NCBI GenBank assembly: GCA_009380025.1
Contig: WHSP01000004.1
Coordinates: 1 to 64,000 of the forward strand
Reading direction: 5' to 3'
Source: Gemmatimonas sp.
GTDB lineage: Bacteria > Gemmatimonadota > Gemmatimonadetes > Longimicrobiales > Longimicrobiaceae
Length of the DNA: 64,000 nucleotides
Each line of letters begins with the position of its first letter. Within the stretch, counting starts at the first letter, position 1. The notes beneath the pieces are model-generated. The model was not told where the DNA came from. It worked only from the letters and a program-made list of their open reading frames with translations, and did no database searches. The translations under genes were made by a program, and so were the position numbers. Of this stretch, positions 17,937 through 20,319 are shown one piece after another.

Positions 17937-18800
17937 CTACTCGGCCGCCACCGTCCCCCCATTCTCACTACCCTTCCGGGACGGTGCCCGGTACCGCTGC
18001 TTCGGAGCGCGCGCCTCGATCAGTGCCTCCGCGAAGGTCGCCGACGCCGTCTCGAACGCTCCCATCGCTCGAAGCTCCGTCGGGTTGAGCGCCGTAAACC
18101 GCCGCAGCGCAAGCCTCAAGCTGCTATCGGCCGCGTACCCACAAGCCAGTGCCACCGCTGTCACCGATCTGCCCGGATCGTCCAGGAACTCGGCCGCCAG
18201 AAGGATCCGCATCCATGCCAGCAATCTCTTCGGCGGTGGGAGTCCCGCTTTCCGGCACCACCGTGACAGCGTGCGCGGCGTGATGTGCAGCGCCCTCGCC
18301 AGGTCCGCGCCCTGTCCCCCTTCCGCGACGATCGATGTCGCGGCCCCAAGAATCGCTCGCGCCGCCGCCGACGTATACGAGGGAAGCTGCCTCTCGACCA
18401 AGCCGCGCAACGGCCGACCCCGCGCCGCCATCAACCTGCGGCCCAGCGCCGGGCCCGTGACCTCCTCTTCCAGGTCCACCACTCCCACTACACCCCACTG
18501 CCCCAGCTTCAGCACGTCTCCGCCGCAACCCGGCCCGATCGCCATCGCCGCGATCACAGTCAACGACGGAAATCGATTCAGCAGTGACGACAGCTCGATC
18601 GACGGCCCCTTCCCACTGCCCGCATACGGATCCACCACGATCAATGCCGACGCCGGCGACGTCCGAACGGCATCCAACAGCTCATCCCATTCGGCAAACT
18701 CGTCCAATTCCATGCCCTCTTTCCGCGCGACAAACCGGAGTCGCTCGCGGAGGACGGCGTCCGAGTGAAGGACGAGCAAGGGGCGAGGTACTTTCTGCAT
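17937..18800 (-). CDS. AraC-like HTH regulator with degenerate receiver-like N-terminus
   Basis: 287 residues. The N-terminal about 115 residues look like a receiver fold (PRPLLVLHSDAVLRERLRFV..., LIVVDPYAG with Asp57 at the phosphorylation position), but the acidic pair after strand 1 is reduced to a single Asp14, so ordinary phosphorylation is doubtful. From about residue 160 a two-helix-turn-helix AraC-type DNA-binding domain follows: GADLARALHITPRTLSRWCR and SVTAVALACGYAADSSLR. The tail after about residue 250 is basic and low in complexity. It sits beside the lipopeptide and TPR genes and diverges from the lipopeptide gene across an about 127-bp AT-containing gap, so it may regulate it. 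This is inference from position only. Confidence 0.7.
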   Translation of the reverse strand: MQKVPRPLLVLHSDAVLRERLRFVARKEGMELDEFAEWDELLDAVRTSPASALIVVDPYAGSGKGPSIELSSLLNRFPSLTVIAAMAIGPGCGGDVLKLGQWGVVGVVDLEEEVTGPALGRRLMAARGRPLRGLVERQLPSYTSAAARAILGAATSIVAEGGQGADLARALHITPRTLSRWCRKAGLPPPKRLLAWMRILLAAEFLDDPGRSVTAVALACGYAADSSLRLALRRFTALNPTELRAMGAFETASATFAEALIEARAPKQRYRAPSRKGSENGGTVAAE

Positions 18801-18927
18801 GGAAGTGTCCTAAAATATTCTGTGGAAGGGGTCTACGCCGTGGCCAAAGCGCCCCGACCAGGCGACTTTGTAAGGGTTGACCGGCTGAAGCAGTCCGCAT
18901 CTCACCCGAACAGGATCGGAGATCATC

Positions 18928-19059
18928 ATGAAGCGAATTCGCATCGGTCTACTCGCCATCAGCTTTGCGGTCCTCGCGGCAGCTTGCGATGCCACGGCGC
19001 CGACCTCAGCCGCCGACTGCGATCCGACGATGGGTTCTGGCATCGATCGGTGCGAGTGA
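18928..19059 (+). CDS. 43-residue exported lipopeptide-like small protein
   Basis: A short open frame with strong local support: ATG at 18928 preceded by GGAG about eight bases upstream, and a complete bacterial signal sequence (MKRIRIGLLAISFAVLAAAC) ending in a lipobox-like LAAAC with Cys20. The mature part would be only 24 residues, with three Cys (20, 29 and 42), Ser/Thr/Asp-rich, ending GSGIDRCE. Its stop codon (19057-19059) directly abuts the stop codon of the convergent TPR gene (19060-19062). It is too short for usual ORF calling. No known function; the arrangement suggests an exported peptide or small lipoprotein linked to the TPR protein. Confidence 0.6.
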   Translation: MKRIRIGLLAISFAVLAAACDATAPTSAADCDPTMGSGIDRCE

Positions 19060-20319
19060 TCATCGGACGGCGCCGAGGGACGTCAGGGCCGTCTCGAACT
19101 CGGTAACTACGCCGTCCACGTGATCCGGGGTCGGGAGGAGTGGTTCAGTCTGCGGTGGCTGATCGGCACCAGCGTAGCGAAGCGAATCGAGGAAGGTCTC
19201 TGCCTCGTGAAGCAGAGCGAATTCGCTTCGCTGCGTTGCCCCGGAGCGCGCGGCGGCGCCGTAGTTGGATGCGAGGGTGGAATCGCCGAGGGAGGCCGCG
19301 CCTCTAGCAAGAGAGAGCAGCGCCGGGGTCGCACCTTGGAGCGTGCCCGGGTAGCGCAACAGCTCGTCGGCGGTCTCCCTGGCCGATGTGAAGGTGCTGG
19401 GATCGCCGAGGGCGCCTGCGGCGCGGGCGATGGCTGCGGCGCGAGCGAGGCGGTCGAGCGGTGTGCCGAAGTCAGGGGGTGAAGCGACAAACGTCCTGAG
19501 CGCGCCAGCGGCATAGCCTGCCTTCATGAGGTAGACGCCGTAATCGTGAGCCAGCGCGGGCAACCGGGGGTGCCCCACCCGGTATGTCTGGAGCGCCAGG
19601 CAAGCGAGCCGAGTCGATTCGTCGAGGCGATCGGTTCGAATGGCAACCACGGTGAGCTCGTGATAAGCCGCGGCGGCCAGGCCCCGGATGGAGAAGCGCT
19701 TCGCTGCTCGGAGGCCCCGAATCAACGCCCTTCGGGCCTGTGGAAAGTTACCGCGGTGCATGAAGACGGTCCCGAGGCCAATATAGGATCGAGAAAAGTC
19801 ATACCAAGACCTGCTCATCCTGGCTCGGGAGATGGCCTGTCGATACCAGGTTTCCGCACGGGTATATTCCGCGCGGCGCTTCGCGAGCCGGGCCACTTCA
19901 CGGGCCACTTCCGCGTTCGCCGGCTCCACCACCGCGGCGGCCTGCAAGAACTCGATCGCCGTTCCCAATAGCCCCTGCTCGTTGGCCCAGTCGGAGAGCT
20001 CACGGCAGGAGGTGCAAACCGTGGCTGCCCGCGCTCGCGGTTGAAGAACGGCCGCTGCCTTCTGCATCGCCGGGCGAATCTCGTCCGGCACCAGGGTGCC
20101 TTCGATCCACCCCCTTCGTTGTGCGAGTGCACCATCCCCGAAGGCCTGCGGTCTCTCTCCCTCCGAAAGCTCACCCCAGAGCCGTACCGAACGTACTGTC
20201 TTCCAGAGGAGTAGGCCCAGGTCGCCTGAGAACTCGGTGAGCACGATGGCGGAGTCGATCGTCTCGCCGTCGTGCAGGATGGGAGGGGGAAGTCGTTGCG
20301 GCTGCTTGCGCTTGTTCAT
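19060..20319 (-). CDS. TPR-repeat protein, probable peptide- or protein-binding sensor
   Basis: About 419 residues from the ATG at 20317-20319 (a TTG at 20379 would add 20). An N-terminal segment (SAIVLTEFSGDLGLLLWKTV, then SVRLWGEL) is followed from about residue 95 by a helical solenoid with recognisable TPR units, e.g. WANEQGLLGTAIEFLQAAAV, LAKRRAEYTRAETWYRQAI, YIGLGTVFMHRGNFPQARRA and AHDYGVYLMKAGYAAGALRT. There is no signal peptide and no HTH, so it is cytosolic and would act by binding a partner. It contains a CTSC motif at about residue 100. It converges on the 43-residue lipopeptide gene. I recall similar leaders in Gemmatimonadota TPR proteins but cannot verify that here. Confidence 0.7.
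   Translation of the reverse strand: MNKRKQPQRLPPPILHDGETIDSAIVLTEFSGDLGLLLWKTVRSVRLWGELSEGERPQAFGDGALAQRRGWIEGTLVPDEIRPAMQKAAAVLQPRARAATVCTSCRELSDWANEQGLLGTAIEFLQAAAVVEPANAEVAREVARLAKRRAEYTRAETWYRQAISRARMSRSWYDFSRSYIGLGTVFMHRGNFPQARRALIRGLRAAKRFSIRGLAAAAYHELTVVAIRTDRLDESTRLACLALQTYRVGHPRLPALAHDYGVYLMKAGYAAGALRTFVASPPDFGTPLDRLARAAAIARAAGALGDPSTFTSARETADELLRYPGTLQGATPALLSLARGAASLGDSTLASNYGAAARSGATQRSEFALLHEAETFLDSLRYAGADQPPQTEPLLPTPDHVDGVVTEFETALTSLGAVR

Follow-up and report, generated by a model that had tools for sequence, protein, structure and literature searches.

A conserved, apparently undescribed three-gene cassette in Gemmatimonadota that probably encodes Rap-Phr-like peptide signalling

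The window analysed here, by which we mean the whole stretch of 64,000 nucleotides of Longimicrobiaceae DNA, contains within 2.4 kb three genes for a TPR-solenoid protein, a short lipopeptide precursor and a receiver-like/AraC-type regulator, arranged in the order TPR> <lipopeptide regulator>. This cassette is real, conserved and apparently undescribed, and we consider it fairly probable that the three genes form a Rap-Phr-like peptide-signalling cassette in a diderm phylum. The regulator gene (17937..18800, minus strand, 287 amino acids) lies downstream of the TPR gene (19060..20319, minus strand, 419 amino acids) on the same strand. The peptide gene between them (18928..19059, plus strand, 43 amino acids) diverges from the regulator gene and converges, stop to stop, with the TPR gene, such that its stop codon (19057-19059, plus strand) touches that of the TPR gene (19060-19062, minus strand). 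By position, the 127 bp at 18801..18927 constitute the divergent promoter region of the regulator and peptide genes; the sequence includes a Shine-Dalgarno-like GGAG (18918..18921, plus strand) 6 nt 5' of the peptide ATG, and a scan of this 127-bp region for a sigma-70 or terminator consensus found none. An earlier note on this DNA had described the same three genes, with these coordinates, the abutting stops and the divergent regulator, all of which hold.

The description of the small gene as a 43-residue lipopeptide-like frame with a LAAAC motif and three cysteines was likewise confirmed. Its product reads MKRIRIGLLAISFAVLAAAC followed directly by DATAPTSAADCDPTMGSGIDRCE, with cysteines at residues 20, 31 and 42 (the Cys20 codon lies at 18985-18987), and would comprise a signal peptide, the lipobox and a mature part of 24 residues. 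LAAAC at residues 16-20 fits the lipobox pattern [LVI][ASTVI][GAS]C by a rule-based call, and the lipobox is found family-wide; signal peptides were predicted by a home-made rule, not by SignalP. When the 607 short ORFs of the window were ranked with a leave-one-out family profile, built from the peptides of other loci with the window peptide excluded, this frame came first (E=5e-6; next 0.03), consistent with the conservation of the family. A single-sequence search with the 43-mer returned weak matches, many of them due to chance and several lying exactly in TPR-AraC gaps. Pfam, NCBIfam and PADLOC contained no curated match for the window peptide, and its assignment to a known lipoprotein, defence or RiPP family was dropped on that basis.

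Across 100 neighbourhoods, the precursors of the family share one plan, in which the signal peptide and lipobox Cys are followed by a short stretch resembling PT[AGS]P and, after a variable spacer, by the C-terminal core. The core is mostly GSG-like among Longimicrobiaceae peptides; another common type is bracketed by cysteines (CDVQNPNVC, CPVTNGSSTC), and many precursors carry 6-10-residue cores in tandem (HTLGSGN x6, NQGTYGPKV x4, DFVNPNA x4, GGSQPWY x3, DFVNPHV x3, HNPDSGN x3, APTLPW x4, ETQGSNN x3 and others). The putative core of the window peptide, assigned by comparison with the family peptides, is CDPTMGSGIDRC (19018..19053, plus strand), which combines a Cys bracket with GSG, both of them family core types. 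Cores are identical within a precursor and strongly different between lineages. Pairwise codon comparisons of the core copies within one precursor gave 195 synonymous and 2 non-synonymous differences, the latter count being biased downward because exact cores were searched, and identical units of 7-9 residues written in different codons would not be expected without selection on the peptide. Further, dN/dS was 0-0.21 in the closest peptide pairs (≥85% identity). Judged from these comparisons, the small frames are genes under coding selection, which acts on the core as its unit. A short precursor with a conserved N-terminal part and a variable core, in some cases bracketed by cysteines and so open to cyclisation, could also belong to a RiPP or a toxin-antitoxin-like pair whose leader-binding or neutralising partner would be the TPR protein; we regard this as highly improbable, given that the leader is of the Sec/SPII type and not of the RiPP type, that no RiPP-type maturation enzyme recurs among the constant neighbours of the cassette and that neither the TPR protein nor the peptide has a match in the defence library.

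In a profile search across the phylum, 105 of 298 genomes proved to carry the TPR family. Among the 51 TPR genes outside the Longimicrobiaceae core (hereafter the distant set), the convergent lipopeptide was present at 45, the regulator at 46 and both at 42, with a median of 20 bp between the TPR and peptide stops and the regulator about 320 bp downstream. When scored by one fixed rule, 64 of 102 Longimicrobiaceae-type TPR genes had a lipopeptide frame convergent with them, compared with 8 of 319 control genes, and 3 of the 102 had a same-strand frame; a stricter count placed the peptide at 66/118 TPR genes and 4/432 controls, three of these four control frames being shadow ORFs of TPR genes. 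In about 37% of the Longimicrobiaceae-type TPR loci no peptide could be detected. Members of the regulator family are often encoded immediately after the TPR gene and in its orientation. Lipobox frames lying stop to stop, or nearly so, beside TPR relatives, for which the earlier note had suggested a search, thus occur far above background; the HTH gene is co-conserved, and the proposal that the three genes form a module is strongly supported by the distant loci that have both partners and by the coding selection on the frames. The short frame is kept in TPR-bearing relatives across the family but not in the three loci most closely related to the window trio (L065, L068 and L073), in which the TPR and regulator genes are present and a search of all frames found no peptide gene; therefore, the pairing is not conserved for the window locus itself. 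The missing peptide in these relatives speaks for genes adjacent by chance or for a short frame that is spurious, an explanation that we find scarcely credible in the face of the distant and Longimicrobiaceae-type counts set against the controls, the synonymous-only repeats, the low dN/dS and the leave-one-out profile match. For the peptide family as a whole, a chance frame is contradicted by the controls and by selection.

Because the gene order is conserved across the class Gemmatimonadetes, the trio is plausibly ancestral, and the Longimicrobiaceae have expanded the TPR-peptide pairs, many of them without the regulator. Longimicrobium-type Gemmatimonadota genomes carry 2-22 TPR paralogs each of the window's own family, and a tree of Longimicrobiaceae-type loci shows numerous TPR-peptide pairs that stand without a neighbouring regulator, with peptides undercounted in the TPR tree as a result of the stricter peptide rule used for it. 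As to other neighbours, a pseudopilin-like gene (MQRGFTVTELVLVCAVLGLIL...) is divergent from the TPR gene, ~1.9 kb upstream of the TPR stop, at 18 of the 51 distant loci; this neighbour of one lineage probably reflects vertical synteny. TPR-peptide paralogs in the window's genome and a congener (L063:5496-7546 and L066:1098-2859) adjoin a NarL-type response regulator gene, which at the L063 locus is followed by a ketoacyl-synthase gene.

The region between the divergent peptide and regulator genes was compared across 45 class-wide loci. Direct repeats with a 21-bp period stood out (z=13.3), with a mean best match at this lag of 10.0 of 15 compared with 7.7 in shuffles; lags of 20 and 22 were weaker, and the remaining lags were near background. 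AraC-type operators usually consist of direct repeats spaced two helical turns apart. The repeats of the distant families have this form, as expected for such an operator; when the 21-bp repeat was sought in Longimicrobiaceae promoters, that of the window included, none stood out. In one lineage the operator-like site recurred at a few genomic positions, with 26 matches in 8 genomes compared with 5 for the reversed pattern; second trios are among the recurrences, as are some positions close to histidine-kinase or response-regulator genes. In another lineage the site was found only within the cassette's own promoter. In four Gemmatimonadetes genomes of family f4 (L264, L266, L262 and L268), the operator-like direct repeat lies near hybrid histidine-kinase and response-regulator genes. 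Repeats near kinase/response-regulator genes possibly mark a small regulon of the AraC-type regulator.

The position of the operator in the peptide promoter would also fit a lipopeptide that is the output of the system, namely a small outer-membrane or surface lipoprotein with an adhesive, antimicrobial or envelope role, with the TPR-AraC pair sensing something else. The lipobox and the conserved PT[AS]P-like stretch after the Cys, which suggest a membrane-anchored product, are in keeping with such an output, as are the many TPR-peptide pairs that lack the regulator. However, loci without the regulator keep the convergent arrangement of peptide and TPR genes; the TPR gene is the constant partner of the peptide, and the short, repeated, lineage-variable cores resemble ligands more than structural lipoproteins. 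We therefore consider an output role unlikely and favour the peptide as a signal.

The TPR protein of the window gave weak Pfam TPR matches over its 419 residues, and its AF2 model is an all-helical solenoid (pLDDT 94.4), as in TPR-fold receptors. Neither the Pfam scan nor the AF2 model contains an HTH, bearing out the earlier observation that this protein lacks one, and it has no predicted signal peptide. Foldseek matched the model to CTPR, LGN and Rap structures, with designed TPRs and LGN outscoring Rap. As regards specific homology to Rap, including its N-terminal three-helix bundle, Rap structures were listed at E about 5e-5, and the profile match to RapJ (E=9e-6) stood among generic TPRs. 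Pfam, NCBIfam and PADLOC gave only generic matches for the protein, with no match in the defence library. On the model, the solenoid is expected to hold a peptide-sized groove. Groove conservation analysis singled out H220 and R147 as the sole striking residues; this is weak evidence, as is the 96% conservation of His220, which the register places in the groove. In one related family (L196, L197, L199, L200, L202 and L210), the TPR proteins have an extra N-terminal domain of ~150 aa for which no Pfam match was found.

The regulator consists of a receiver-like domain (residues 1-126; 18423..18800, minus strand), delimited by the family alignment, AF2 and Foldseek, and an AraC-type HTH_18 DNA-binding domain detected with Pfam (E=2e-16; residues 167-245; 18066..18302, minus strand). 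The AF2 model (pLDDT 92.5) accordingly shows a receiver fold and an AraC-type HTH, and Foldseek matched these to FixJ/Spo0F receivers and AraC-type HTH structures; HTH_18 was also confirmed in those distant regulators that were scanned. The earlier note had read the N terminus as a degraded receiver, and this reading agrees with the fold and with the alignment: H12 replaces the acidic pair and D57 is kept, both being nearly invariant. Of the features of a phosphorylatable receiver, D57 is thus retained, the acidic pair is replaced and the Lys is not conserved. The only PADLOC match of the regulator, mad1 (E=2e-4, 28 residues), reflects the HTH and was rejected. At L064 (G000:C445), L067, L076 and L095, regulator homologs occur with neither a TPR nor a peptide gene in the flanking sequence retrieved; near those at L064 and L076 lies a lipoprotein gene of a different kind, encoding about 91-97 aa with ...YFRWGxSYDGC....

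We propose that the small gene encodes a prepropeptide that would leave the cytosol through Sec and be lipidated or cut by signal peptidase II, and that its C-terminal core (CDPTMGSGIDRC in the window, often tandem repeats in relatives) would be freed by proteolysis as the signal. The core would then re-enter cells and bind the groove of the cytosolic TPR solenoid in Phr-Rap fashion. The cassette includes no importer or cognate kinase gene; the five oligopeptide-binding SBP_bac_5 proteins encoded by the host genome are a candidate route for re-import. By contact with the receiver-like/AraC regulator encoded downstream, the TPR protein may control its activity; the regulator would in turn switch peptide production and its own expression through the divergent promoter and, in some lineages, act on a few further promoters. 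A point against this scheme is that a lipid-anchored precursor requires an extra release step. The predicted anchoring of the precursor outside the cytosol, the lack of an importer in the cassette and the response-regulator genes that adjoin some TPR-peptide pairs would each suit a signal perceived outside the cytosol, through a receptor in the membrane or periplasm; inside the cell, the TPR protein would then serve the regulator as a scaffold or adaptor. We hold this to be improbable, as no membrane receptor is a constant neighbour of the cassette and the constant partner of the peptide is a soluble TPR protein, and we retain intracellular sensing by the TPR protein as the preferred mechanism.

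Peptide communication through cytosolic TPR proteins is known from Bacillota; to our knowledge, no peptide-signalling system is known in the phylum Gemmatimonadota. The literature searched, which left most subscription papers outside it, described no such system in this phylum. Published surveys of RRNPPA systems covered only Firmicutes and viruses (PMC10075063, PMC9765709), and the RRNPP_detector survey used the same layout only there (PMC10075063). If true, the proposal would extend peptide communication to an abundant, poorly understood soil phylum in which a single genome can encode up to about 20 putative receptor paralogs and the distinct repeat peptides number in the dozens. The repeated cores supply exact peptide sequences for synthesis, and the idea is therefore directly testable.

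Among known systems, Rap proteins bind receiver domains and Phr peptides release them. The cassette resembles Rap-Phr (RRNPPA, Bacillota) in having a TPR receptor candidate without an HTH beside a short exported propeptide, and the receiver fold of its regulator is the kind of domain bound by RapH in 3q15. RRNPPA propeptides sometimes contain tandem pheromone copies (PMC11343458); many cassette precursors carry their putative cores in tandem. In contrast to Rap-Phr, the cassette occurs in a diderm phylum, has a lipobox (Sec/SPII) precursor, a convergent instead of a tandem gene order and its own receiver-like/AraC regulator, and homology is demonstrated only as generic TPR. With PlcR, NprR, Rgg and AimR it shares the logic of a TPR peptide sensor with an adjacent secreted propeptide; however, the N-terminal receptor HTH of all RRNPPA members but Rap is absent from the window TPR protein, and the DNA-binding domain resides on a separate AraC-type protein. 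RRNPP-like peptide sensing, which the earlier note had raised, is the best explanation, tempered by the receptor without the RRNPP HTH and by the three closest relatives without the peptide. Like receiver-fold AraC-type response regulators, the cassette regulator joins a receiver fold to HTH_18, but it has H12 for the acidic pocket, with D57 retained, and no cognate kinase in the cassette. Enterococcal sex pheromones are derived from lipoprotein precursors and sensed intracellularly by the TPR protein PrgX, and the cassette likewise pairs a lipoprotein-type precursor with a TPR protein as putative sensor; the enterococcal pheromone is cut from the signal peptide, whereas the cassette core lies in the mature C-terminal part and is conserved and repeated. 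The cassette is set apart from RRNPPA because of its receptor without an HTH, its lipobox precursor, which is nonetheless an adjacent exported short propeptide, and its separate output regulator. Overall, we judge it rather likely that Gemmatimonadota possess a class-wide peptide-pheromone system whose prepropeptides are of lipoprotein type with repeated cores, whose TPR family lies outside RRNPPA and has expanded to ~20 paralogs per genome, and whose output runs through a receiver-like/AraC regulator.
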